64,000 nucleotides of DNA from Achromobacter aloeverae. Its GTDB lineage: Bacteria; Pseudomonadota; Gammaproteobacteria; Burkholderiales; Burkholderiaceae_B. Position 1 is the stretch's first letter. Each line of letters begins with the position of its first letter. The notes beneath the pieces are model-generated. The model was given only the letters and a program-made list of their open reading frames with translations. It did not search any database and was not told the DNA's origin. The translations under genes and the position numbers were made by a program. The DNA lies in the NCBI RefSeq assembly GCF_004121055.1, contig NZ_PYAL01000004.1, positions 62,001 through 126,000 of the forward strand, read 5' to 3'. This document shows, piece by piece, positions 41,646 to 53,376 of the stretch.

Positions 41646-42653
41646 ATGGCATACATCAGTCAGCGGGGCGCCTTCTGGCGCGCCGAAGTCCGCCGGCGCG
41701 GATACAAGCCGGTTTACCGCACCTTCGACAGCAAGCTAACCGCCCAGCAGTGGGCCCGGCGGATCGAATCCGAGATGGACGCAAGTGTCTATGTCGATCG
41801 CACCGAAGGGGAGCGGACGACGTTGAGCGAGGGCCTGGACCGATACCTTCGAGAGGTCGTTCCCACGAAGACCTCACCTGATCAAGAAAAAAGCCGTGTG
41901 CTGCGCTGGAAACAGCACCCGTTGGCGTATCGGATGATGGCCAGCCTGCGCGGGGCGGACTTCGCCCGTTATCGGGACGAGCGCCGCGCCGCCGGCAAAG
42001 CGGAGAACACGATCCGGCTCGAATTGCAGTTGATTAACCATCTGTACGAGATGGCTCGCAAAGAGTGGGGGATGGAGGGGCTGATGAACCCCTTGAAGAA
42101 TATTCGCAAGCCCAGCGGCAGCAAGGCCCGAGAGCGGCGCCTGCAATCCGGGGAGTACGAGGCCATCAGAGCCTACTTGATCGGTTCCGGCAATCCCTAC
42201 GGTGCAGCGGCTTTTGACCTGGCAATCGAAACGTCGTTGCGTCAAGGAAAGCTCTTTGCGCTGAGATGGGAATGGATCGACCTGGATGCACGTTTGGTTC
42301 GTATTCCCTCGATATTCCGTCAAGCGGGGAACAAGGGAGTCCCGGCCATCCTGCCGCTCTCGCGGCGAGCTTGCAATGTGCTGGCCCAATTGCAGGCCCG
42401 TGACGGCCGTATCGAGGGCCGGGTGCTCGATACGACCGCTAACGCCGTGGTCTGCCTGTGGAAGAGGGCTACAAGGGCGCTGAAGATCCATAACCTGCGG
42501 TGGCACGACCTGCGCCATGAGGCCACATCACGTTTATTCGAGAAGGGTTTGAATCCGATGGAAGTGGCCAGTATCACCGGCCACAAGAGCATGCAAATGC
42601 TCGCAAGGTATACCCACTTGAAGCCCGAAGCCATCTTGGCCAAGCTGGATTAG
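41646..42653 (+). CDS. int: tyrosine integrase of the island
   Basis: A 335-aa phage-type tyrosine recombinase. Catalytic residues are visible: R199 (ETSLRQGKLFALRW), H287 and R290 (RWHDLRHEA), H313 (TGHKSMQML) and nucleophile Y322 (ARYTHLKPE). A core-binding region precedes the catalytic domain. Position next to attL in tRNA-Lys makes it the likely enzyme for integration and excision. The start MAYISQRG at 41646 is typical of this family. Confidence 0.96.
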   Translation: MAYISQRGAFWRAEVRRRGYKPVYRTFDSKLTAQQWARRIESEMDASVYVDRTEGERTTLSEGLDRYLREVVPTKTSPDQEKSRVLRWKQHPLAYRMMASLRGADFARYRDERRAAGKAENTIRLELQLINHLYEMARKEWGMEGLMNPLKNIRKPSGSKARERRLQSGEYEAIRAYLIGSGNPYGAAAFDLAIETSLRQGKLFALRWEWIDLDARLVRIPSIFRQAGNKGVPAILPLSRRACNVLAQLQARDGRIEGRVLDTTANAVVCLWKRATRALKIHNLRWHDLRHEATSRLFEKGLNPMEVASITGHKSMQMLARYTHLKPEAILAKLD

Positions 42654-42772
42654 CAGCGCTGCATGTCGCAAAGGTGAACATTTATGGGGCGCTCGCCCCG
42701 CTTGCAAGCGGCGAATAACCAGGCGGCCACCTGGCTACCCGCCTAACCACTCCCACCATCTGGGGGTGAATA

Positions 42773-42994
42773 ATGGCTGAAAATATTGTATCGGTCGCAC
42801 TGGTCGAAGACCTGCTGATTGAATCAACGCCAGAACTCGAAAGCGGAGCGGATAGCGATGTCATGGCACTATCTGCGCTCCTACAGCCCGCTCTGGATCT
42901 TGTCGTCGAGGCCTATCAGCAGGTAAGCAGGCACGCTGGTGCAGAAGTCGCGTTTCGACGGTTTGTGGAGCGCTTGGCTCAGGCTGGCGACTGA
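42773..42994 (+). CDS. small hypothetical acidic protein
   Basis: A 73-aa acidic helical protein (MAENIVSVALVEDLLIESTP, ending FRRFVERLAQAGD). A weak GGGGGTG ribosome site precedes the ATG. No recognised domain. Some solo PIN toxins have short antitoxins nearby, but a 257-bp gap separates this gene from the PIN gene, so pairing is doubtful. The gap 42995-43251 shows nothing recognisable. Confidence 0.45.
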   Translation: MAENIVSVALVEDLLIESTPELESGADSDVMALSALLQPALDLVVEAYQQVSRHAGAEVAFRRFVERLAQAGD

Positions 42995-43251
42995 ATGCCT
43001 TGCTGGTGGACGTAGGGCGGGGCGCTGCCCCATACCCCGCGTTCGCCACGTGGCAGGGGTGCAGGCCGAGCCTGCACCCGCGCCGCTAGGCTTGTTTGAG
43101 GTATCTTGCGGCAAGGGTCCGCTTCGCCGGCTCCTCACCCGTTCGGTGCTCGCCTTCGGCTGCGCTCCGCGTGCGGCTTCCGGGGCCGCCCTTGACGCGG
43201 TGTGGGCCGTCTGGGCGCTGCGCCCCATAAACCTTCACCTTTCAAGCAATC

Positions 43252-43677
43252 ATGAAATACGTCCTGGATACCAACGTGTTCAATCGCGTACTCGATAAAC
43301 AATTCGATCTTTCGTCCGTACAGGATGCGACAGGTCTTGTCGCTTCCCCTGTGCAGTTGTACGAGCTGAGAAGTACGCCCGACGAGACGCGTAGGACCGA
43401 GCTATTGCAAATCTTCAACTCCGTGACTCCTGATCTAGAGGCGACGGCGCTTGCTTTCGATATCCCTGGAGCAGGGTTTGATGAAGCGAATTGGGGGGAC
43501 GATGACCGGATTCAAGCGGTGCGGAATGATCTCGAAAAGGTGAAATCAAAGCTCAATAACTGGCAGGATGCGCTTATCGCCGGTGTCGCGTTGAAGTACG
43601 GCTACGGGCTTGTCACAAGCGATCGGCTGTTGGCCGACGTGGCGGAGCGTCACGGTATAACGGTGCGGAATATCTAA
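43252..43677 (+). CDS. PIN-domain ribonuclease-like protein
   Basis: A 141-aa protein with PIN-fold acidic positions D6 (MKYVLDTNVFNRV), E39 (VQLYELRST), D106 (NNWQDALIAGVAL) and D124 (LVTSDRLLADVAERHGI). PIN proteins are Mg-dependent single-strand RNases, often VapC-like toxins. No convincing antitoxin sits immediately beside it. The next gene follows after 11 bp, suggesting an operon with the metallophosphoesterase. Confidence 0.85.
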   Translation: MKYVLDTNVFNRVLDKQFDLSSVQDATGLVASPVQLYELRSTPDETRRTELLQIFNSVTPDLEATALAFDIPGAGFDEANWGDDDRIQAVRNDLEKVKSKLNNWQDALIAGVALKYGYGLVTSDRLLADVAERHGITVRNI

Positions 43678-43688
43678 TCGCCAGCCCT

Positions 43689-44468
43689 ATGCGACTCGGA
43701 CTCTATTCGGATCTTCATCTTGAGCTCATGCCACATGGGTCTTGGCAGCCGCCGGCGCTCGACGTCGATGTGATGATTTTGGCGGGTGATATTGCCTCGC
43801 ACACCCACGGCCTAGCATGGGGACGAGACACCTTCCGGCAGCGGGCCAACCCTCCGGAGGTCGTCTACGTCGCGGGCAACCATGAGTACTATGATGCCCA
43901 CCTGGGGCTCTTGTCTGAACTAAAGACTCCCGGTTGGAAGGAAGAAGGCATTCACTTCCTGGAACGTGAAACCCTCATCCTGCCTGGCGTGCGAATCCTG
44001 GGTTGTACGCTATGGAGTGCATTCGACCTTTACGGCAAGGACGGGATGAATCGCGCAATGGCTGATGCGCGACAACACCTGAGTGACTACTGGATGATTA
44101 AGGCGCGTAATGGCCAGCGGCTGAGTCCTGTCGATACCTGGGAGTTGCACGAAAAATCTGTGCGATGGCTGGACTACGAGTTGACCACACCTTTCGAAGG
44201 CACGACTGTGGTAGTGACCCATTTCGCGCCGCACCGACGCTGTATTGCCCCGAGATATGAGGGCGATTCTCTCACGCCATACTTCGTGACCGATATGACG
44301 GGAATAATGACTAAGCACCAGATCGATGTCTGGTGCTTCGGCCATACCCATTACAACGTCGATTTCATTGCCGAAGGTGGGTGCCGCGTTGTCAGTAATC
44401 AACGGGGCTATCGCGGTGAGGTGCAGGCAGGAAATGGGTTTCGGCCTGATTTGATCATCGAGCTTTGA
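43689..44468 (+). CDS. calcineurin-like metallophosphoesterase
   Basis: A 259-aa protein with all five signature blocks in order: D8-x-H10 (LYSDLHLEL), ILAGDIASH, VAGNHEYYDAHL, VVTHFAPH and CFGHTHYN. These bind two metal ions for phosphodiester or phosphomonoester hydrolysis. No signal peptide. It lies between a PIN protein and a nuclease remnant, so a nucleic-acid or nucleotide substrate is likely but unproven. Confidence 0.9.
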   Translation: MRLGLYSDLHLELMPHGSWQPPALDVDVMILAGDIASHTHGLAWGRDTFRQRANPPEVVYVAGNHEYYDAHLGLLSELKTPGWKEEGIHFLERETLILPGVRILGCTLWSAFDLYGKDGMNRAMADARQHLSDYWMIKARNGQRLSPVDTWELHEKSVRWLDYELTTPFEGTTVVVTHFAPHRRCIAPRYEGDSLTPYFVTDMTGIMTKHQIDVWCFGHTHYNVDFIAEGGCRVVSNQRGYRGEVQAGNGFRPDLIIEL

Positions 44469-44518
44469 ACGAGATTGGATGGGACCGCCGTTACATTCTT
44501 TAGGTGCCGATTCGGAAA

Positions 44519-45065
44519 ATGATGATTTTGGTGTTGGACTTGGAGGCGACGTGCGCCGACGATGGCAGTATCCCGCCCGAAGCGATGGAAAATCATTGAG
44601 GTCGGGGCGTGCTGGGCGACTCCAGATGGTCGGGCGCTGGACCGATTTCAGTCCTTTGTACGGCCGACCGAGCGACCGACCCTCACCCCGTTCTGCAAGG
44701 GGCTGACCAATATCGAGCAATCCGATATTGACGGAGCGCCAACCTGGCGCCATGTGTCCGCCATGCTGGCCGAGTTTGCCACGCGTCCCGAACAGGCGGG
44801 CGGAGTATGGGGAAGCTGGGGCAGCTACGATGCGCTGCAGATCCAGCGTGACTGTGCGCGGCACGGTGTGCCTAACCCCCTGGCGGGCTTGGTCCATCAG
44901 AACCTGAAGGCCAATTTTGCCAAGAGTCGAAAAATCAAGCAGGTGGGTGTGGTCACCGCACTGCGGATTATCGGTCTGCCGCTGGAGGGCGTGCACCATC
45001 GAGGGTTGGACGATGCGCTCAGTATCGCTCGTTTGCTACCGTGGTCATGGAGGGGCCGACCCTAA
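44519..45065 (+). pseudogene. DEDDh 3'-5' exonuclease, frameshifted
   Basis: The reading frame starts at ATG 44519 with the exonuclease motif I (MMILVLDLEATCADDGSIPP) but hits a stop at 44597-44599. The continuation (KIIEVGACWATPDGRALDRF, SYDALQIQRDC, HHRGLDDALSIARLL) is in another frame reached at the AAAA run 44589-44592. Removing one A gives a continuous RNase T/KapD-like protein of about 180 aa with D, E, D, H and D catalytic positions intact. An alternative short product could start at ATG 44562 but would lack motif I. The cause may be mutation, slippage or sequence error. Confidence 0.75.
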
Positions 45066-45221
45066 CATCTCGGCAAGTGTGATCCGGGCGGATTGGAATC
45101 TATCGAAGATCGCGATGCCTCCCCTACCAAAGTGTCGCGCGATCCGGGTTTGAGCGGGTAAGCTCAGATGCGCGGAATGCAGTAAATTTGCCCAGTGCGT
45201 GGTTTTCTAATCGGAGCGATC

Positions 45222-46271
45222 GTGTCCAAAAATGCCGGTAGCGACATCACTTCATTAGCGGATTTGCTTTATGGTACGCAGCCGAAAGCGCAGGCGGTCG
45301 CATCTACGCTGCTCGGCACTACACGGCCGACGCTCGAAACGGCATTGGGAGGACTTGTTGACTCTCAGGCGGCGGCGAGCCCAACTTGGCCATTCGTCGT
45401 TAGACGCTTCAAGAAATTCCTCGAAAACATCATGTTGACCGATGCACAGGTCACGGATGGAATGACGAAGTTCAAAGGCGTGGTCGCTTGCTTAAACGCG
45501 GCGTACTACGGCACGAATTCGGAAACGGATAACGCGTTCTATATCGGCTCTTGGGCCAAGAAGACTCGCATTCGTCCGCCGCGAGATGTGGATTTGTATT
45601 TTGTACTGCCGGTAGAGGTATATCATCGCTTTGAAACGTACAGTGGCAATAAGCAGTCGGCGTTGTTGCAAGAGGTCAAGGCCAAGTTGTTGGCCTCTTA
45701 CCCGACTAGCAACATCAAGGGCGACGGGCCAGTAGTGCTCGCGGGTTTTTGGACCTTTAATGTTGAAGTCGTACCGGCGTTTCCTTTGACCGAAGACCGT
45801 GCGTACTGGGTGCCAAGTACGAAGAACGGCGGCAGCTACTTAAAAACAAAACCACTGCACGAGGTCGATGCAATCGAGGCCGCTGATCAGCGTAACAACA
45901 GTAATGTTCGTCGTCTCGTTCGGATGCTGAAGTGCTGGCAGGCGAACTGCTCAGTGCCGCTCCGGTCGTTTTATTTGGAACTACTCGCGACCGAATTTAT
46001 AGATCAGTGGGCCTATAAAAGCATGAGCTATTTTTATTACGACTGGATGTGCCGCGACTTTTTCGCATGGTTGATATCTAAGGCAAACTCCTATGTGCTC
46101 GCGCCAGGAACGTTTGAAATCATGTGGATCGGTGATTCGTGGAAGTCTCAGGCCGAAACGGCATCTATGCGGGCTCATAAAGCGTGCGAATATGAGAAGA
46201 CTAACAAAGAAGGCGAAGCTGGCGACGAATGGCAGAAGATTTTTGGCGCCGATGTGCCGAAGTGGGTGTGA
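45222..46271 (+). CDS. CD-NTase (cGAS/DncV-like nucleotidyltransferase)
   Basis: About 349 aa. The GTG at 45222 (MSKNAGSDIT) has GGAG 5 nt upstream; the GTG at 45195 is an alternative. The nucleotidyltransferase signature is G109-S110 with D122 and D124 (IGSWAKKTRIRPPRDVDLYF), and the third acidic residue is probably E182 (FNVEVVPAF). The C-terminal helical half fits an OAS1-like/SMODS domain. In CBASS defence these enzymes make cyclic nucleotides on phage infection. The stop overlaps the next ATG, so the two genes are translationally coupled. Confidence 0.88.
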   Translation: MSKNAGSDITSLADLLYGTQPKAQAVASTLLGTTRPTLETALGGLVDSQAAASPTWPFVVRRFKKFLENIMLTDAQVTDGMTKFKGVVACLNAAYYGTNSETDNAFYIGSWAKKTRIRPPRDVDLYFVLPVEVYHRFETYSGNKQSALLQEVKAKLLASYPTSNIKGDGPVVLAGFWTFNVEVVPAFPLTEDRAYWVPSTKNGGSYLKTKPLHEVDAIEAADQRNNSNVRRLVRMLKCWQANCSVPLRSFYLELLATEFIDQWAYKSMSYFYYDWMCRDFFAWLISKANSYVLAPGTFEIMWIGDSWKSQAETASMRAHKACEYEKTNKEGEAGDEWQKIFGADVPKWV

Positions 46272-46774
46272 TGGATCCGCGCATTGACCAGATCGTTGAA
46301 GAGGCTAAGCGTCAGGAGGAGTCCTGCCTCTACACGTCCACGGCGTTGTTCAGCTGGCAAAAGGAGGTTCGCGTATTCCGCGTGGCCTTTATCGTCATCC
46401 CAATCATATGCGGGTCGTTCGCTAGCGCCCGAATCTTCGTGCGCGATCCTTGCTACGACTGGCCCATCGCCATCGCGGCGATGGTCGCGGGTTTGTTTCC
46501 TGCCGTGTTTAAGGCGCTTGACCTCGACGTGAGTTTGAAAACCATCGCGGACAGTGCGAACCGTTTCAAAACCCTGCAGGATCGTTTCCGTCAAGCCTCT
46601 CTGATCGGAGCCACGCGGAACGCGGCAGAGCTGGAGGAGGAATTTCTAGCACTGATGCAGCGCATGGATGACACTCGTTCTTCGAGTCCAACGATTCCCG
46701 ATCGGCATTTCGTAAAAGCTCAAGCGAAGATCAAGAAAGGGGACTACAGGTTCGACCGCACGAAGATCAGCTAG
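46271..46774 (+). CDS. SLATT-domain membrane protein, probable CBASS effector
   Basis: About 167 aa; the ATG at 46271 overlaps the CD-NTase stop. Two membrane helices (VAFIVIPIICGSFASARIFV near 38-57 and DWPIAIAAMVAGLFPAVFKA near 63-82) are followed by a long cytoplasmic helical region. SMODS-linked SLATT proteins are thought to be membrane-disrupting effectors gated by the cyclic nucleotide. With the CD-NTase it makes a minimal two-gene CBASS without Cap2/Cap3-type genes. Confidence 0.82.
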   Translation: MDPRIDQIVEEAKRQEESCLYTSTALFSWQKEVRVFRVAFIVIPIICGSFASARIFVRDPCYDWPIAIAAMVAGLFPAVFKALDLDVSLKTIADSANRFKTLQDRFRQASLIGATRNAAELEEEFLALMQRMDDTRSSSPTIPDRHFVKAQAKIKKGDYRFDRTKIS

Positions 46775-46899
46775 GCGGCGGCTTACCCATGGCTTCCTTC
46801 GGTGCCGCCATATGCGGGCTTCGGTCGTTCCCGCAGGCCCCGACAGTGCAGTGGGCCCCTGCGCAGCCCGACCTTCCGTTTGCCGCACAGGCAAAAAAA

Positions 46900-46928
46900 T
46901 TGACAAAGAAATATGGCTGTGATTAAAT
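46900..46928 (+). promoter_or_regulatory. strong sigma-70-like promoter of the retron-like unit
   Basis: A perfect TTGACA (46900-46905), a 17-bp spacer and TTAAAT (46923-46928) follow an A7 tract. The predicted RNA starts near 46931-46935, about 350 nt before the first coding sequence, leaving room for a long structured RNA. Confidence 0.75.
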
Positions 46929-46931
46929 TCA

Positions 46932-47150
46932 ACCAGGGCGAGCGTTTCGCTCGTGTGTTCTTTAATCTTTTCTCCAATTCGTCTGAGATAGGACCGTTTC
47001 ACGCTGGCGCAAGCCGGCGCTAGATGGACCAGCATCTGGCTAACACGTGATGAGCGGGCAGCCGCAGTCACGGGACGAAGCGTCGTACTTCCCGCGTTAT
47101 AGCGGGCAGCTGGTCGCGATCGACCGCTCTCCCCGAGCAGTTGATTGCAA
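46932..47150 (+). ncRNA. probable retron msr-msd RNA (ends approximate)
   Basis: The leader folds into successive hairpins: CGAGCG-TTT-CGCTCG (46939-46953), GCTGGC-GCAA-GCCGGC (47003-47018) and GCTAGATG-GACCAG-CATCTGGC (47019-47040), as in an msr. A larger msd-like fold follows, closed by GAGCGG (47052-47057) with CCGCTC (47124-47129), containing CGGGA/TCCCG (47071-47094) and GGTCG-CGAT-CGACC (47112-47125). A 10-bp direct repeat, AGCGGGCAGC, occurs at 47053 and 47101. I could not identify the a1/a2 pairing or the branching G with confidence, so both ends are approximate. Confidence 0.55.
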
Positions 47151-47252
47151 CCTGAAGCCTGTCCTCGCGCAGTAAGGGCGGCTTAGCTTCTTTCGTCGGT
47201 GGTGGGTCTTGAGGTGTTGAGCGACTCCTTTTCGGTCATTGCTCTTGGGCGG

Positions 47253-47266
47253 CAGGCATATGCCTG
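47253..47266. promoter_or_regulatory. 14-bp perfect palindrome, possible Xre operator
   Basis: CAGGCATATGCCTG lies just before the ribosome binding site GGAGA (47271-47275) of the 75-aa gene. A dimeric Xre protein is encoded in the same unit, so autoregulation at this site is plausible. Confidence 0.5.
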
Positions 47267-47281
47267 GAACGGAGAAAGTAC

Positions 47282-47509
47282 ATGCAGAACTTAAAGAACC
47301 AGATCCAGGAGCTCGATGAGCTCCTGGATCTGACCCACGGTCAGCTCAACACCGAAGTGCGAGTAGCTATGAAACTCAAGATCGCCGAGCTCAAGAGGCA
47401 GGCCGATCAAGCAGACGCCCTAACCCAAGGGAAAATCGCGTCAGAGGCCTTGCGTCTGCTGGCGTCCCTGCTGAGCGTGATTACAAATGTCATCACGCTT
47501 TTGAAGTGA
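47282..47509 (+). CDS. 75-aa coiled-coil/amphipathic protein of the retron unit
   Basis: The ATG at 47282 has GGAGA 6 nt upstream. The N-terminal 55 residues are charged and coiled-coil-like (LKNQIQELDELLDLTHGQ, MKLKIAELKRQADQADALT). The C-terminus is a hydrophobic helix (ALRLLASLLSVITNVITLLK), which could insert in membranes. The stop overlaps the GTG codon of the Xre frame. It may be the effector (toxin) of the retron, by analogy with other retron accessory proteins, but this is inference. Confidence 0.65.
   Translation: MQNLKNQIQELDELLDLTHGQLNTEVRVAMKLKIAELKRQADQADALTQGKIASEALRLLASLLSVITNVITLLK
47300..47332. repeat. 15-bp perfect hairpin inside the 75-aa gene
   Basis: CAGATCCAGGAGCTC (47300-47314) and its exact complement (47318-47332) are separated by GAT. 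It lies 16 nt after the start codon and encodes QIQELDELLDL. Such a stable early stem could limit translation or serve as a template structure for the neighbouring reverse transcriptase. Confidence 0.8.
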
Positions 47510-47835
47510 GTGGATGCGGAGCACACAAGGCCCACACTTTTGTATCGATCCCAATGAACATTGGAAGAACTCTCAAGCTTTGCCGCTCAGCGAAAGACCT
47601 CTCTTTAGAGGTCGTGGCTGCGCGTGCTGGCATTTCCACATCCTATCTTTCCCGCTTGGAGAACGACAAGCGGGAACCTACGTTGGCACTTGTGGGTAAG
47701 GTTGCTGAAGCGCTAGAAGTACCGGTTCCCGTAGTGATTTTTCTTGCATCAGACGACAAGGAATTGAAGTACATGGACAAGGAGACAGCACAGCGTTTTT
47801 CCGATCTCGCTCTCGGCTTGATGCGTCAGAAATGA
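47506..47835 (+). CDS. Xre-family HTH regulator of the retron unit
   Basis: The GTG at 47506 overlaps the preceding stop (GTGA), giving 109 aa; the ATG at 47554 (MNIGRTLKLC, 93 aa) is equally possible and neither has a good ribosome site. The helix-turn-helix is clear (LSLEVVAARAGISTSYLSRL, ENDKREPTLALVGKVAEAL). The ATGA overlap with the reverse transcriptase gene shows tight coupling. Retron type VI is described as pairing an HTH protein with the RT, which this resembles. Confidence 0.85.
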   Translation: MSGCGAHKAHTFVSIPMNIGRTLKLCRSAKDLSLEVVAARAGISTSYLSRLENDKREPTLALVGKVAEALEVPVPVVIFLASDDKELKYMDKETAQRFSDLALGLMRQK

Positions 47836-48890
47836 CCGCGCCGAGGTATCCACACGACAGGATTCAATCGATTGGCTCACTGCGACATCCCTTAGGTATG
47901 GACGCCAGGGAGTTGACTGCATTGGCGAAACGAGCGTCGCGACTGTATTTTGTCGCGAAGACCATTCCAAAAAATGATGGGACACAACGCGTTCTATATG
48001 ACACTGCTAAGCCACTTAAGCCGGTTTTGCAGCGTATCAATGACAATTTCCTTCGGCGGGTAATCTACCCTCATTATCTGACGGGCGGTGTGCCGGGGAA
48101 GGACTACACCGATAGCGTCAAGATTCACATTGGAGCGAAGTCAGTCATCAAGGAAGATATCTCAAAATTTTATCCAAGTGTGACTTTCGACGTTGTCTGC
48201 GATATCTGGTCTGGATTCTTTGGGTTTTCTCACGAGGTCGCGGACCTTTTGGCACTCCTTACGACCCGAGATGGCCATCTGGAACAGGGTGCGCCCACGA
48301 GTGGATACCTGGCCAATCTGGCGTTGTGGGACGTTGAGTCATCGCTTATTGCGAAGCTCGCTTCAATCGGGGTCACGAGATACTCGAGGCACGTAGACGA
48401 TATCACCTTGTCCAGTCAGGAACATCTTAGCGCGGCACGCGTTGACTGGGTCGTCAGAACAGTCGCCGCAGCTTTGGCACGGAAGGGTCTGCTTGTACAT
48501 GCTGGTAAGCATGAGGTCATGCACGCCGGCGGCCAGATCGAAGTTCTGAAGCTGATAGGAAATACCAAACCATCTCTGCCTCCTAAGGAGAGATCGAGAG
48601 TCCGCGCCCTCGTAAATAACTTCTGCCGCCGAGTGGAATCCGGAGACTCAGTCGAAGAGCTGCAATCCTTGTTGCCCCGCATCCGAGGGCAAGCATACAA
48701 GGTCAAGCGATTCCATCGCCGTAAGGGTGAACAGCTTATCGAGCAAATCGATCGAGTGGCCAAAATACTTCGCGCTCGTGCAGGCGAGGCCCAGCCGAAC
48801 ATCGACAAGCTTCAGCGTGATATGGTCGATTCTTATAGCGCGAATGAATCGTTCGGCCGGCAGTCAGCGGTCGTTGACCCACCCTGGTGA
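47832..48890 (+). CDS. retron-type reverse transcriptase
   Basis: A 352-aa protein consisting of the RT fingers/palm/thumb only. Seen blocks are the catalytic Asp in IKEDISKFYPSV, QGAPTSGYLANLALWDVESS, the active site RYSRHVDDITLSS, and a thumb-proximal HEVMHAGGQIEVLKLIGNT. The usual YxDD tyrosine is His here (HVDD) while both Asp residues are kept. Small size, lack of a maturase domain, upstream structured RNA and HTH partner favour a retron over a group II intron or DGR enzyme. Confidence 0.88.
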   Translation: MTAPRYPHDRIQSIGSLRHPLGMDARELTALAKRASRLYFVAKTIPKNDGTQRVLYDTAKPLKPVLQRINDNFLRRVIYPHYLTGGVPGKDYTDSVKIHIGAKSVIKEDISKFYPSVTFDVVCDIWSGFFGFSHEVADLLALLTTRDGHLEQGAPTSGYLANLALWDVESSLIAKLASIGVTRYSRHVDDITLSSQEHLSAARVDWVVRTVAAALARKGLLVHAGKHEVMHAGGQIEVLKLIGNTKPSLPPKERSRVRALVNNFCRRVESGDSVEELQSLLPRIRGQAYKVKRFHRRKGEQLIEQIDRVAKILRARAGEAQPNIDKLQRDMVDSYSANESFGRQSAVVDPPW

Positions 48891-48943
48891 TCTTGGTCAC
48901 TGGCTGAAAGCCCACCGGATGGGCGATGGGTTGGCCCAACGGG

Positions 48944-48984
48944 CCAGGCAGGGGGGGCAGGCCCCCCGGCCCTGGGGTGCTTTT
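48944..48984 (+). terminator. GC-rich hairpin after the reverse transcriptase gene
   Basis: GGGGGG (48952-48957) pairs with CCCCCC (48962-48967) around a CAGG loop, inside an outer CCAGG/CCTGG stem (48944-48948 with 48971-48975). A short T4 follows at 48981. It would end the retron transcript and faces the convergent secreted-protein gene. Confidence 0.6.
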
Positions 48985-48988
48985 GCCG

Positions 48989-49306
48989 CTACTGCGAAAT
49001 TGACGGAGTTAGTCGTGATTCCGCGGTGAGCCCCTTCTTGGACTCAGGTTGAAGGTAATAGACGGGAGGGGCCAGGCGCTGCAGCTCGCATTCTTCCGCA
49101 GCCGTTAGCTTATCCACCACCTCTTTGGTGTGTGCCGCACATCCAGCGTCGTTGGGGCAGGGGTTAGGCAATTGGCGAGCTTCTTGCACGGTTTTTTCAT
49201 AGCCACACGGATCCGCCCGAGAGGCGGGTGTATCAGCCTGGCCGTGGGCAAGACCGGGAATTGCCAAGGCCAACGCCAGCATGGCGGGCGTGAGTCGGAA
49301 CTTCAT
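48989..49306 (-). CDS. small secreted or periplasmic protein
   Basis: About 105 aa; the ATG at 49306 (MKFRLTPAML) has GGGAGG 4 nt upstream. A signal peptide is evident (TPAMLALALAIPGLAHGQA). The mature part has four Cys (DPCGYEK, NPCPNDAGCAAH, AEECELQ), possibly two disulfides. No family recognised. It directly follows the recombinase gene (1 bp apart). Confidence 0.7.
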   Translation of the reverse strand: MKFRLTPAMLALALAIPGLAHGQADTPASRADPCGYEKTVQEARQLPNPCPNDAGCAAHTKEVVDKLTAAEECELQRLAPPVYYLQPESKKGLTAESRLTPSISQ

Positions 49307-49307
49307 A

Positions 49308-50333
49308 CTACCTCCCATTGATCGGACTAGGCTTGGAATCGAGGTGTCGAATCGGTTTTGCGGCTGTGGCCCGCTTCGGAAGTAGGGGATTTTTCCCGCC
49401 GGCAGCCCAGGAGCCGTACCTGGATTTCGTTCTGGCGCTGCGATGGCCCAGCGCCGCGGAAATTTCGTCCGGGTCTCCGCCGGCACGCTTCATGTCGCTG
49501 ATCAGAGCGTGCCGTAGCAGATAGGGGACGACATCCTTCTTCACGTTCGGCCAGAGTGTCCGTCCCGCCCGCCGCAATGCCGAAGTCCAAGCCACCTTGC
49601 TGGGCACGCTTACCAATGCGACGGCGCCTTCACCCAATTCCACAAGTTGCAGTAGCCGAGCGACGAAGGGGTGATTTACGTCATAAACAATGTTGCGTAC
49701 CGGCTGACCTTGAATTTCACCCTTTACCTTTGCCCCCCAAATGCTCAAAGTGAATTCGTCTGAGGTCCACTGCACTTCTATTCCTCTTTGCAGCTCATGT
49801 GGACGAAGGCCTGACAGGGCCGATATGAGATATGCCTTCTCGTACTGCATCCCGATGAATTTCCTGGCCAATTGGTTGCGCCAGTCGTCGGGAAACCTGC
49901 GCAGGTTCTGGCGTTGAGATCGGCGGCCCATGACCTGGGACCCAGGGCGTACGCGTGACTTCGGATTTGCTGGATATGGTTTGGCGGCCGAGGAGACGAG
50001 TCGGTCGAGCTCGAGGACTTCCTGGATGGCATCCATGTCGTCACGCTGAGGTTTCTGGTGGTTCGCCCGCGCCAAGTAGTCTTCGAGCATTTTCACAATG
50101 CCGTATTTGAGCGCGGCGACACGGCGGCCATAGGTGCCTGCCGAGGTGGTCTTGCGAGCAAGATTCCAAATGTCGTGAGCGCTTCTTCCATGTTCGCCAT
50201 CGAGCCGATTGAATTCGCGCACGTATCCTTGTCTGGTGTCCGTCGAAGAATCACTCGGCGCCTTCAAGGTAAGACGTTGGCGGACGATGGAAAGCAGGTC
50301 GTCGTGTTGTTCTTGTTGGGTTGCGGTTTCCAT
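49308..50333 (-). CDS. second tyrosine recombinase
   Basis: A 341-aa protein. The catalytic domain has R177 (SALSGLRPHELQRG), R274 in PYLLRHALISD, H297 (ALGHRSARTKSRYG) and probable nucleophile Y306. The first His of the HxxR motif is Tyr (Y271). The N-terminal half is helical and could bind core sites. It is unlike the integrase at the left end. An imperfect inverted repeat and a repeat array lie just upstream of its start and may be its targets. Confidence 0.85.
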   Translation of the reverse strand: METATQQEQHDDLLSIVRQRLTLKAPSDSSTDTRQGYVREFNRLDGEHGRSAHDIWNLARKTTSAGTYGRRVAALKYGIVKMLEDYLARANHQKPQRDDMDAIQEVLELDRLVSSAAKPYPANPKSRVRPGSQVMGRRSQRQNLRRFPDDWRNQLARKFIGMQYEKAYLISALSGLRPHELQRGIEVQWTSDEFTLSIWGAKVKGEIQGQPVRNIVYDVNHPFVARLLQLVELGEGAVALVSVPSKVAWTSALRRAGRTLWPNVKKDVVPYLLRHALISDMKRAGGDPDEISAALGHRSARTKSRYGSWAAGGKNPLLPKRATAAKPIRHLDSKPSPINGR

Positions 50334-50391
50334 AGCGTTTGCTCAAAAGGGGGATGGGTGCTCAAGTTCTTATGGGCATTTGGGCGCCTTA

Positions 50392-50442
50392 CTCATTCTC
50401 TGTCTATGGGTTTCTCTCCGAGTAACCCAGACAGAGAATGAG
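50392..50442. repeat. 19-bp-arm inverted repeat upstream of the second recombinase
   Basis: CTCATTCTCTGTCT (50392-50405) pairs exactly with 50429-50442, and GGGTT (50408-50412) with AACCC (50424-50428), leaving only a 2-nt AT bulge and an 11-nt loop. It sits 59 bp before the recombinase start. It may be a recombination core site, an operator or a terminator. Confidence 0.75.
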
Positions 50443-50477
50443 GAAGCGGCAATTTGACTTCGCATAACAGCGTCTAT

Positions 50478-50642
50478 GTGACGCAGCCAAGTGCGGAAGT
50501 TGCGTCACGGTGACTCTGTTCCGGGTCACTGTGACGCCGCTTCGCGTCACAGTGACCACGGTGTTGGCACCTTATTCGCAGCTTGGCGTCACTGTGCCCC
50601 TGATCGCTGCGTAAATGATGTGGTGCGAAGTCAAAGTGACGC
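50478..50642. repeat. array of GTCACnGTGAC-type palindromes
   Basis: Three 11-bp palindromes GTCACnGTGAC occur at 50504-50514, 50525-50535 and 50546-50556, each with GCG or CGC extensions. Partial copies are at 50478 (GTGACGC), 50586 (GCGTCACTGTG) and 50631 (GTCAAAGTGACGC). Spacing is close to 21 bp for the central three, that is two helical turns, as in iterons or cooperative operator arrays. The weak minus-strand frame across it (50474-51010) is taken as non-coding. Confidence 0.8.
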
Positions 50643-50725
50643 AGGTGGTTTTGAGCACGGATGTCTTCTATTTCGAGCACCCCTTGCGTATCATGCGGTG
50701 ACGTCGCCGTGATGGGGGAGCTTTG

Positions 50726-51103
50726 ATGACAACGCTGGACTACCAGGCTGGGCTTGGCGCTGGTTTCGCCGCCGCGAAACGAGTTAAGACCACCTTGAAC
50801 TCGTGGATTCGGCACGCCGACCGATTGCAGGCTCGCATCAATGAGCTTGAAGCCGAGAATCGGGCGTTGCGTGAAAAGGTGACGCTTAGCTATGCCTCGA
50901 CCCAGGCCGCGGGCTTCATGTGCAATGAGCTCGCGACGATCGTTGAGCGGGTAGCGCCCACCGCGGCTCTCGCTGATCCAGCTGCACGGCAGGCTATCAG
51001 ACGGCAGCATCTCGGAGCCTTATTGCTGGAAAAGGGCTATACCTACGATCCCGAAACGGGGACTCTTGTGTCGAGCCCTAGTGGGCCACGGGTGAGTGGG
51101 TAG
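50726..51103 (+). CDS. small coiled-coil protein
   Basis: About 125 aa; the ATG at 50726 follows GGGGGAG by 5 nt. A Leu/Glu coiled coil (HADRLQARINELEAENRALR) suggests dimerisation, and the remainder is Ala-rich helical. No family recognised. It is transcribed away from the palindrome array, and a DNA-binding or partition-like role is possible but unproven. Confidence 0.65.
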   Translation: MTTLDYQAGLGAGFAAAKRVKTTLNSWIRHADRLQARINELEAENRALREKVTLSYASTQAAGFMCNELATIVERVAPTAALADPAARQAIRRQHLGALLLEKGYTYDPETGTLVSSPSGPRVSG

Positions 51104-51108
51104 CACCA

Positions 51109-53376
51109 TTACTGCCCCAATAGGTCTTTGTTGTCTGGTAATGGGTCTTTCGCAGCGGTGGAAGCAGCACTGCCTTCCCCACTGATTCCTGCACTACTCG
51201 TGGGAGACGGCCCATCACCACCAAAGCCGGCATGCTGCCGAACATTCTGGACATTGCCCTCCATCCGGCCCTGCGTGGATTCGCCCACTTGCTGGGCCGA
51301 ATGTAGGCCACTGGAAATGCCGCCGAGCCAGCGCAGGATGTTGTCGGGGATCCAGTGAATGAGCGAGAACACAAGGTGGACCACCGTCGTCATGACGCCC
51401 ACGTAGATCGCGATGTAGCAGATGGCGCTGACCAATCCCGTCATGGAATCGGCTTGCACGCCGGCGACAACGGTCATGTAGGCTGCGTTGATGAACCCAA
51501 CGACTGGCTCGGTGAGCAGCATCGCTGTGATCAGGCCGAAGATCATCAGGGTGGGACGGATCAGCAGCGAGAGAACGAGCATCCACCCGGGGCCGGCCTT
51601 GCCAGATACGTCGTCGCCGTCGGGATGAACGTGTGCGACCGCGAATAGCGGACCGGCGATCATGGCCTCGACAACCAGTACGAACCAGTTCACCACGGAA
51701 GTGGTCCACGTGATGAAGGGCACCATTGGCATGTATGTCGAAAGCATCACGCCGCAGGCTAAGAGCATGAGCACGATTACCATGATGAAGGGCCCAAAAA
51801 GCTGCAAGACGGCCCCGATATTGAAGGATCCCATCGTAGCGACCGAGGACGCCACCTGCCCCACTAAGGAGTTGGAAAACCCGGCGGCAACGGCCGACGC
51901 GGCCATGATGGCTTCGCCGGTACCGACAATGACGTCGCCGTAGCCTTTCATCTGGCTCATGTGGTTCAGGTTCGAGCCTGCGATCCATTGCGTGGTCTGG
52001 TTGATCAGTCCCATGAAAGGCGCCGAGATGAGTTTTTTCCACCAGGAAGCCGCCGTCCAGTCGCCATTGGAGAAATTCACGTCCGTGGCCGCGTAATACG
52101 CCTGGCGCACGCTGTTGACGTGATTTTTTGCGTACTCCCGCGCAGTGGTCGTGGCGTCGGCATACGTTTGCAGGACCTGGGTCGTCTCCTTGTCCATGAT
52201 GGTGACCGGCGACACCGTGGGCAAGGCATTCAACGTCGTTTGCATCGCGTCGTTGAGCTTGGCGATCTGGTTGTACCAGGTCCCTGCGAAGATCCAGCCC
52301 GCATCTTTGGCGGTCGCGATGAAGTCTGCTTTGGATTTGTCGCCCGTCTGCCCGATGATGCCTTGAGCCGCTGCACGAAGTGATGACTCGTAGGCATTCG
52401 CCGCGTTGTCCAACGCGCCCACATCGGGCTTAGACCCTGCGACGATGGCCCGGGCGATGGGACGCAGCGTGGTGATCATCGTTTGCACGGCCGCTACATG
52501 CGCCTGCAATAGCGTGTTCTTGATGCTTTGCGTGCCGCCGACTGGCGACGCGAACGAGTCTTTCCATTCCAGGCCGCCGCACACGTTCGGGTTTAGATAA
52601 CTGTCGTCGTTCGCGTGCCAGTAGGTGGCCTTGGTCGTGTAAGTCCCCATGGGGCTCGACGAATCGGGCGTGGCACCTAAGGCCGGGGACGGAGGCGTCA
52701 CGGTGTTGACCGAGACGGGAGGGCTGTCGCTCACGATCCGGGTAGACCGGCCGGAAAGCGCATACTGCTGATTCATCGCGGCCATGCAGACTTCGGACTG
52801 TAAGATCGAGGCCGCTAGCGGGCGGGAGTCCGGGATGATTGGTTGCGCGATCATGCCCGAGCTGGCCAGCTGGTTCAGTCCCGCGGCCCAGACGGCATCG
52901 GCGATGCCAGCGCCTTGCAGCGTGGCCCACATGAGCGCGATCTGCACGAAGGAATATCCCGCGCCAAGGGGCAGCAGCACGGCCACGCCGATGATGGAGC
53001 GCAGCGGTACCCAAGTGGAGTGCATAGTGCGCCCCAGCCATTCTCCGTCATGGGCCGAATTCACCGTGGCCTTGATCGAGGTATAGGCCACGAAAACCAT
53101 CCCCAGAAAGATGATGGCCGAGCAGTACACCGACATCATGCTGCCCAGCGCAGTGTCAGTGGTTCCTCCCTGCGTTCCACTCACGCCGGTGGCGTTCGAC
53201 ACCAGGTTCACCACCGGTCCGAAGATTTCCGAGAGGAACTGCACCGAAGTGTCGCCGGGTGGCGGGCTGAATTGCTTCCATGTCGAGCTGGCGTCCTGGG
53301 CCGCGGCCGTGTCCGCCAACAGCAGGAGTCCGGTCGTGACCAGACCGGTACACGTATTTTTGCGTATTGTTCTCAT
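51109..53376 (-). CDS. DotA/TraY-family membrane protein (type IVB secretion/conjugation)
   Basis: A 755-aa protein with a signal peptide (CTGLVTTGLLLLADTAAAQD), membrane helices at residues about 85-150 (SVYCSAIIFLGMVFVAYTSI, IIGVAVLLPLGAGYSFVQIA), a large periplasmic loop (about 165-440) and a C-terminal membrane cluster (FGPFIMVIVLMLLACGVMLS through ICYIAIYVGVMTTVVHLVFS). The tail is Gly/Ser/Gln-rich. This matches the DotA/TraY plan. No other type IVB transfer genes are visible, so it is an orphan. It overlaps the next minus-strand gene by 4 bp. Confidence 0.78.
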   Translation of the reverse strand: MRTIRKNTCTGLVTTGLLLLADTAAAQDASSTWKQFSPPPGDTSVQFLSEIFGPVVNLVSNATGVSGTQGGTTDTALGSMMSVYCSAIIFLGMVFVAYTSIKATVNSAHDGEWLGRTMHSTWVPLRSIIGVAVLLPLGAGYSFVQIALMWATLQGAGIADAVWAAGLNQLASSGMIAQPIIPDSRPLAASILQSEVCMAAMNQQYALSGRSTRIVSDSPPVSVNTVTPPSPALGATPDSSSPMGTYTTKATYWHANDDSYLNPNVCGGLEWKDSFASPVGGTQSIKNTLLQAHVAAVQTMITTLRPIARAIVAGSKPDVGALDNAANAYESSLRAAAQGIIGQTGDKSKADFIATAKDAGWIFAGTWYNQIAKLNDAMQTTLNALPTVSPVTIMDKETTQVLQTYADATTTAREYAKNHVNSVRQAYYAATDVNFSNGDWTAASWWKKLISAPFMGLINQTTQWIAGSNLNHMSQMKGYGDVIVGTGEAIMAASAVAAGFSNSLVGQVASSVATMGSFNIGAVLQLFGPFIMVIVLMLLACGVMLSTYMPMVPFITWTTSVVNWFVLVVEAMIAGPLFAVAHVHPDGDDVSGKAGPGWMLVLSLLIRPTLMIFGLITAMLLTEPVVGFINAAYMTVVAGVQADSMTGLVSAICYIAIYVGVMTTVVHLVFSLIHWIPDNILRWLGGISSGLHSAQQVGESTQGRMEGNVQNVRQHAGFGGDGPSPTSSAGISGEGSAASTAAKDPLPDNKDLLGQ

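Follow-up and report, generated by a model that had tools for sequence, protein, structure and literature searches.

A type VI retron of Achromobacter aloeverae with a predicted RNA clamp on its small-protein gene and a repressor-operator code

Introduction

Type VI retrons are poorly studied bacterial anti-phage elements, reportedly discussed by Mestre et al. in 2020. How might such an element, built from a small protein, a helix-turn-helix (HTH) regulator of the Xre type and a reverse transcriptase (RT), control its presumed effector? The question is raised by a locus of Achromobacter aloeverae that lies in a stretch of 64,000 nucleotides (contig NZ_PYAL01000004.1 of assembly GCF_004121055.1, positions 62,001 to 126,000, forward strand), here called the window and numbered from its first letter. 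An original prediction, made from the letters and their open reading frames (ORFs), proposed an HTH-linked retron in which a 75-amino-acid protein is the toxic effector, with Xre and multicopy single-stranded DNA (msDNA) as control.

Our preferred reading, to which we give a probability of about 0.6, is that this type VI retron locks a small effector twice, with Xre at the promoter and a clamp formed by the retron noncoding RNA (ncRNA) at the start of the effector gene, the effector being freed by phage attack or RNA processing. In retrons generally, according to PMC12548924, the finished effector protein is sequestered in an RT-RNA-DNA complex, whereas in the present system effector synthesis itself appears to depend on the RNA. 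The predicted RNA lock on the small-protein gene and the repressor-operator code are apparently unreported and have no counterpart in the literature on type VI retrons covered here. This novelty is provisional because the literature search reached few subscription papers; within that search we found no mechanism for type VI retrons, and no paper among the matches listed that combines “retron” with “boxA” or with “Shine-Dalgarno.”

Results

Gene content and retron type

The unit comprises a conserved promoter, a structured leader of ∼345 nt and three genes, an architecture already proposed in the original prediction and now borne out by the ORF list, the alignment of relatives and the leader fold relative to shuffles. 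It begins at the predicted operator, slightly 5′ of the range first proposed:

46880-46894 (no strand): predicted Xre operator TTGCCGCACAGGCAA, ending 5 nt upstream of the -35 element, a 9/10 match to the palindrome TTnnCTNNNAGnnAA
46900-46929 (+): promoter, with -35 TTGACA at 46900-46905 and -10 TTAAAT at 46923-46928 or TAAATT at 46924-46929
47282-47509 (+): small protein of 75 amino acids, candidate effector, PADLOC profile SP_VI (2.3e-9), with a hydrophobic/amphipathic C terminus
47554-47835 (+): Xre regulator, PADLOC profile HTH_VI (3.8e-24), recognition residue R34
47832-48890 (+): retron RT of 352 amino acids, PADLOC profile RT_VI (4.2e-62), catalytic DD at residues 189-190

The -10 candidates lie 17-18 nt downstream of TTGACA, and the -35 element is kept as TTGACA or TTGCCA in four aligned relatives; the promoter scan by itself was not significant, with 1 found against 1.1 expected in shuffles. 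Xre, directly upstream of the RT gene and overlapping it by 4 nt, has 93 amino acids if read from its ATG and 109 if the start is the GTG at 47506.

Since the SP_VI, HTH_VI and RT_VI profiles match the three genes in the right order, the locus is, on sequence comparison, a real type VI retron and one that the original prediction described well. The type VI call thus stands, on the profiles and on the RT tree below; the wider interpretation that came with it is supported only in part. RT_VI is the best of 59 families for the window's RT (208 bits), with RT_V second at 188 bits. The RT profile matches 24 sequences of solved structure, the best being retrons Ec86 and Ec67, and none of these is labeled type VI. 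The class as cited in PMC8541194 likewise unites a small protein, an HTH regulator and an RT in one operon.

In a 52-row RT tree, drawn with a midpoint root and containing long branches for L134 and L118 (relatives carry L numbers), the window's RT falls among retron RTs, so that an origin outside the retrons fails as an explanation. It groups with L015, L029, L030 and L031 (100/100), within a 26-row clade (99/98) that also contains, at three separate places, five rows with no detected Xre (L110, L114, L118, L136 and L167). This clade joins 11 type V-like RTs (100/98), among them L010, L011, L013 and L028, rather than the second lineage with the order small protein, Xre, RT (11 rows, 100/100), which stands apart and has higher RT_VI scores where scored. 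That separation suggests that “type VI” as profiled may be two lineages. The RTs of type V retrons (Se72-like, with a cold-shock protein) form the sister clade of the window's; there, the partner is a downstream cold-shock-domain protein, and SP_VI and HTH_VI were not matched in those tested (L010 and L013). As a separate observation, a small ORF, rich in lysine and hydrophobic at its tail, stands before the type V-like RTs of L010, L011, L013 and L028 and may be an unlisted partner.

Relatives used for comparison

The main comparison set comprises 24 systems that share the three-gene order and encode a related protein 68-85 amino acids long. Three later systems, L133, L159 and L172, were held out; L133 had stayed outside the 24 because its small protein was initially missed. 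Hosts include Ralstonia, Hydrogenophaga, Burkholderia paludis, Xenorhabdus, Halomonas and others, together with Alteromonas and Pseudomonas plasmids and viral contigs. We dropped L033 and L135, which are the same as L008 and L039, respectively, together with L007, nearly a copy of L006, and six copies of L036 or L111 (L109, L112, L113, L170, L171 and L173), and omitted L115 (near copy of L114) and L012 from the tree. Also dropped were L043 and L047 (fragmented or without partners) and L032 (fragmented RT, small protein not seen). This last locus is a close relative of the window's RT (78% in the best segment) that lies in pieces and looks like a decayed copy.

Among 268 genomes of the family, RT_VI matches at 1e-40 occur in 26, at a cut-off that also admits other retron RT types, and SP_VI matches at 0.01 occur in six, in every one of which an RT_VI match adjoins. 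SP_VI also matches in 13/13 members of set A7. In the five clade rows with no detected Xre, a small ORF lies directly before the RT. The assignment of these small ORFs is by position only: PADLOC gives no match at 0.1 for those of L110, L114, L118 and L167, as well as those of L010, L013, L154, L151 and L005, and one weak, unrelated match for that of L136. A broader claim, that the small protein is the constant partner, had been drawn from several “Xre-less type VI” loci and was narrowed, as RT_V is the best profile for L010 and L013 and, narrowly, for L136.

A conserved leader RNA

The leader has a predicted fold of -181.3 kcal/mol, compared with -145.9 ± 6.0 kcal/mol in 100 shuffles, none of which is as low (z -5.9). 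Its elements are as follows:

46938-46953 (+): 5′ hairpin, with a stem of 7 bp and a 3-nt loop; relatives retain it and show two-sided changes
46957-46965 (+): X1 (GTTCTTTAA), pairs with small-protein codons 4-6 and is also boxA-like
46967-46975 (+): X2 (CTTTTCTCC), pairs with the Shine-Dalgarno sequence of the small protein
46979-46996 (+): a1-like strand of the long-range helix
47002-47039 (+): two conserved hairpins (47002-47019 and 47020-47039), presumed msr
47040-47173 (+): variable region, presumed msd from its position and divergence
47174-47235 (+): near-invariant 3′ block of the presumed msd, with a recognizable counterpart in the second clade
47233-47252 (+): a2-like strand of the long-range helix
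47253-47266 (+): hairpin between a2 and the Shine-Dalgarno sequence
47270-47278 (+): Shine-Dalgarno region CGGAGAAAG, predicted to pair with X2
47291-47299 (+): codons 4-6 (TTAAAGAAC), complementary to X1
47301-47331 (+): hairpin within the small-protein coding sequence, -29.4 kcal/mol, given without a shuffle control

Five aligned leaders of the window's clade, the window's included, are strongly conserved at both ends and variable in the middle, and their consensus fold contains the long-range helix of 46979-46996 with 47233-47252. For the second clade RNAalifold drew other pairs and not this long helix; a direct search there found strands at matching places that differ in sequence and still pair. 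Over the 24 systems, cognate a1/a2 strands have a mean energy of -31.5 kcal/mol, compared with -27.4 ± 0.7 kcal/mol when permuted (0/20,000 as low), the segments being broad enough that these energies include neighboring pairing. On this comparative evidence the leader is a conserved RNA whose a1/a2-type helix is kept in relatives of different sequence. It thus has the retron arrangement of a structured ncRNA with a1/a2 repeats enclosing msr and msd, the exact ends of the latter two being presumptive. A search of Rfam up to E 1 gave no match for the stretch. The hairpin after the early codons recurs in weaker predicted versions in the ten relatives folded, likewise without a shuffle control.

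A predicted clamp on the small-protein start

Between the 5′ hairpin and a1 runs a strand, here called X, that is predicted to pair in two parts with the start region of the small-protein gene (Y), X1 with the early codons and X2 with the Shine-Dalgarno sequence, such that the start codon lies between the two helices. Both helices are part of the minimum-energy fold of the window's RNA; the duplexes predicted for L014 and L134 deviate from this pattern in their details. We fixed X (32 nt) and Y (-18 to +30) before the permutation tests; the sub-windows X1 and X2 were set later, and for L159 the start of X was picked by eye at the end of the 5′ hairpin.

Cognate X/Y pairing has a mean of -19.45 kcal/mol in the 24 systems, compared with -14.80 ± 0.65 kcal/mol when partners are permuted (0/20,000). 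The comparison holds in 12 divergent systems (-18.42 versus -12.98 ± 0.97 kcal/mol; 0/100,000), for each half of the duplex alone in those 12 (0/20,000 each) and for all 27 systems together (0/20,000). Against shuffled X, the held-out systems give p values of 0.004 (L133), 0.024 (L159) and 0.024 (L172). None of 24 other X strands pairs as well with the start regions of L133 and L159, and nine of 24 do so with that of L172. When X was swapped within ten sister or near pairs, the cognate strand was better in eight (Wilcoxon p 0.007). Comparison between clades thus shows a pairing that covaries. X beats its own shuffles at p < 0.05 in 16/24 systems, and a fixed 9-bp core pairs in 88.9% of cells, compared with 37-64% when slid by 1-3 columns.

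Opening the window's start region is predicted to cost 11.5 kcal/mol in the full transcript, 2.1 kcal/mol without X and 1.3 kcal/mol for an RNA cut 30 nt upstream of the start codon. The full transcript is the costlier to open in 18/24 systems relative to that lacking X, and in 24/24 relative to the cut RNA. Considered together, these data make it probable that the 5′ segment of the leader clamps translation initiation. In the four type V-like loci tested in this way the segment after the 5′ hairpin is unremarkable (L010, L011, L013 and L028 rank 214, 131, 132 and 103 of 340); in L110, a row with no detected Xre in the 26-row clade, it pairs better, at rank 45/340.

Type I toxin-antitoxin mRNAs encode a small hydrophobic protein whose start is closed by long-range pairing with the mRNA 5′ end, comparable to the clamp predicted here. 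In contrast, the closing RNA in the window's system is part of the retron ncRNA.

A predicted operator code for Xre

The 15-bp palindrome TTnnCTNNNAGnnAA, located just upstream of or overlapping the -35 element, scores at least 9/10 in 26 of 31 Xre-bearing systems, the consensus being derived from the same data. L085, L150 and L152 were left out of this tally and looked at afterward. With the fixed consensus, 0/10 loci lacking Xre score 9 or more, five of the ten (L010-L013 and L028) being type V-like or close kin. Among the clade rows with no detected Xre, none (L110, L114, L118, L136 or L167) showed such a score.

Two variable letters of the half-site track the residue that follows SYLS in the Xre recognition helix, with arginine going with TTGCC, methionine with TTCAC, leucine with TT[G/T]AC and glutamate with TTCGC. 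The corresponding counts are 11/12 for R with GC, 20/22 for M with CA, 11/12 for L with GA or TA and 14/14 for E with CG; the sole lysine system, L134, has no clear operator site. Mutual information between residue and half-site is 1.97 and 1.75 bits for the two letters, compared with permuted means of 0.47 and 0.50 and maxima of 1.04 and 1.05 (5000 permutations each). L111 carries R with TTGCC outside the window's clade, and L038 and L116, sisters of each other, have neither the residue nor the site in common, so changes in the two features look coordinated on the tree.

In a held-out test of ten systems, the predicted class was the sole best, at 9-10/10, in seven (L129, L133, L152, L154, L155, L156 and L172). 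Of the held-out loci in this test, seven have the E residue, and six of these come from or near the E-class lineage of the training rows. L157 was tied at 9, and L131 and L159 had no convincing site. Scanning 17 Xre-less loci by half-site class gave one that reaches 9 (L162, type V-like by the tree), and L085 and L150, whose Xre falls outside the code, have no operator site. The covariation and the held-out test give strong comparative support to Xre as an autorepressor of the operon at the predicted operator, the controlling role first proposed for it. The code offers a direct handle on the promoter. One candidate was rejected, that of msDNA as a decoy operator for Xre, with a site at p < 0.05 in only 1/23 ncRNAs scanned (L137).

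The same order of small ORF, regulator and RT is found in type VI-like retrons of three phages, Peduovirus P2_2H1, Burkholderia phage KS5 and Shewanella phage MuM16-1 (PMC8541194). Those of KS5 and MuM16-1 carry the E-class form of the operator palindrome; unlike the window's RT, theirs belong to the other, E-class lineage of the tree. The small proteins of these phage retrons are unlike the window's, and the MuM16-1 ORF has no PADLOC match at 0.1.

The small protein as candidate effector

The most hydrophobic 19-residue stretch of the window's small protein is its C terminus, residues 56-74 (mean Kyte-Doolittle 1.93). This stretch lies in the C-terminal half in 22/24 systems (not in L117 and L039), with values from 0.67 to 2.15. 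L-K-N residues near the start of the protein fall on the codons paired by X1. Searches of NCBIfam (cut-off 0.001) and PHROG (cut-off 0.01) gave no match for the protein. An effector role is plausible on sequence evidence because, among the 268 genomes, SP_VI occurs only beside RT_VI, because the ncRNA is predicted to clamp the gene at its start and because small ORFs, judged by position, precede the clade RTs that have no detected Xre. The protein may act at the membrane.

Discussion

Proposed mechanism

We propose that Xre binds the palindrome by the -35 element and represses the whole operon, a step with strong comparative support. Any transcript made would start with the retron ncRNA, in which the strand just outside the a1/a2 helix would pair with the Shine-Dalgarno sequence and early codons of the 75-amino-acid gene and so keep the mRNA silent in translation, as the comparative data suggest. 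From what is known of the family, the RT would bind the ncRNA and reverse-transcribe a portion to give msDNA. The clamp would then open, either because a phage attacks the RT-RNA-DNA complex or because the RNA is processed, and the protein, acting as an amphipathic, membrane-active effector, would bring about cell arrest or death.

A tentative extension, which we hold unlikely, is that msDNA synthesis switches the lock from cis to trans, such that a retron and a type I toxin-antitoxin system are fused in one RNA. Copying of msd and removal of the template RNA would leave the clamp strand attached to msr and msDNA but separate from the effector mRNA, with only base pairs and the RT then holding the two together. 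If so, loss of the RT-msDNA complex in infection would directly turn on effector translation. The predictions point to the ORF to treat as effector and to the ends of the ncRNA, and thereby make an uncharacterized system directly testable.

Several observations weigh against the two-lock reading. Both exceptions in the swap comparison, which pair no worse when swapped, belong to the window's clade (window/L031 and L029/L030), so the clamp there rests on conservation and energy rather than on compensation, and the window's X compared with its own shuffles gives p 0.11. The 9-bp core is mostly conserved rather than covarying, column shuffles reaching its two-sided changes in 61/500. In 18/24 systems the start region pairs just as strongly with one or more other segments of the leader, and X fails to lower accessibility in 6/24. 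For L146 and L134, both non-cognate means are stronger than the cognate a1/a2 helix. TTAG[CT]G follows a1 in many second-clade members, and in the leader alignment of the window's clade no branch guanosine was identified and no clear counterpart of that motif was seen. Finally, the retron RT motifs NAxxH and VTG are degenerate in the window's RT (SVKIH and VLK), NAxxH being present in the second clade and the type V-like rows and VTG in the type V-like rows.

Alternative explanations

The alternative that survives best, though we judge it improbable, is that the small protein is a structural or regulatory partner, binding for example the RT-RNA complex or Xre, with the clamp tuning only its dose. 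Its N-terminal half is mixed in charge, helical-looking and conserved in the lineage; its net charge in the window is near zero, and hydrophobicity is only moderate in many members. Double silencing, at promoter and start codon, looks instead like the control of a toxin, and a hydrophobic or amphipathic C-terminal stretch recurs in ORFs, assigned by position only, whose N-terminal half differs.

We think it quite unlikely that X1 and the 5′ hairpin act as an antiterminator of the boxB-boxA type found in ribosomal RNA (rRNA) operons, carrying transcription through the long untranslated leader, with complementarity to the codons incidental. After the 5′ hairpin comes [TC]G[TC]TCTTTAA, the rRNA leader of the same genome reads CGCTCTTTAACAAC, and a TTCTTT/CTCTTT (or TTCTTC) core with an A-rich tail, close to boxA, is present in 22/24 systems. 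However, L117 and the held-out L159 have lost the UUCUUU core, yet their X pairs with their own, equally changed codons, and X2 covaries with the Shine-Dalgarno sequence, which boxA does not predict. The clamp and boxA roles of X1 could coexist.

That Xre and the small protein form a conventional toxin-antitoxin pair to which RT and RNA were added later is very improbable: Xre-type regulators are common antitoxins, the two genes are small and adjacent and there are weak HipB-like NCBIfam matches below the cut-off, but SP_VI was found only near RT_VI (6/6 genomes) and related RTs retain the small ORF where Xre was not detected.

Genomic setting

A CBASS (cyclic oligonucleotide-based antiphage signaling system) pair lies upstream, with a SMODS cyclase at 45195-46271 and a 2TM/SLATT effector at 46271-46774. 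It ends ∼105 nt before the retron operator, so two defense systems stand in tandem. The setting is island-like (41646-53376), with two tyrosine integrase genes, one at 41646-42653 (+) and the other at 49308-50333 (-). Between them lie genes for PIN, metallophosphoesterase and DEDDh exonuclease proteins, and DotA/TraY lies at 51109-53376. In the gap between the small protein and Xre (47510-47553), two frames read alike in the window and L029 (RxTQGPHF and AxKAHTF, from translations only), which suggests a further conserved noncoding element.

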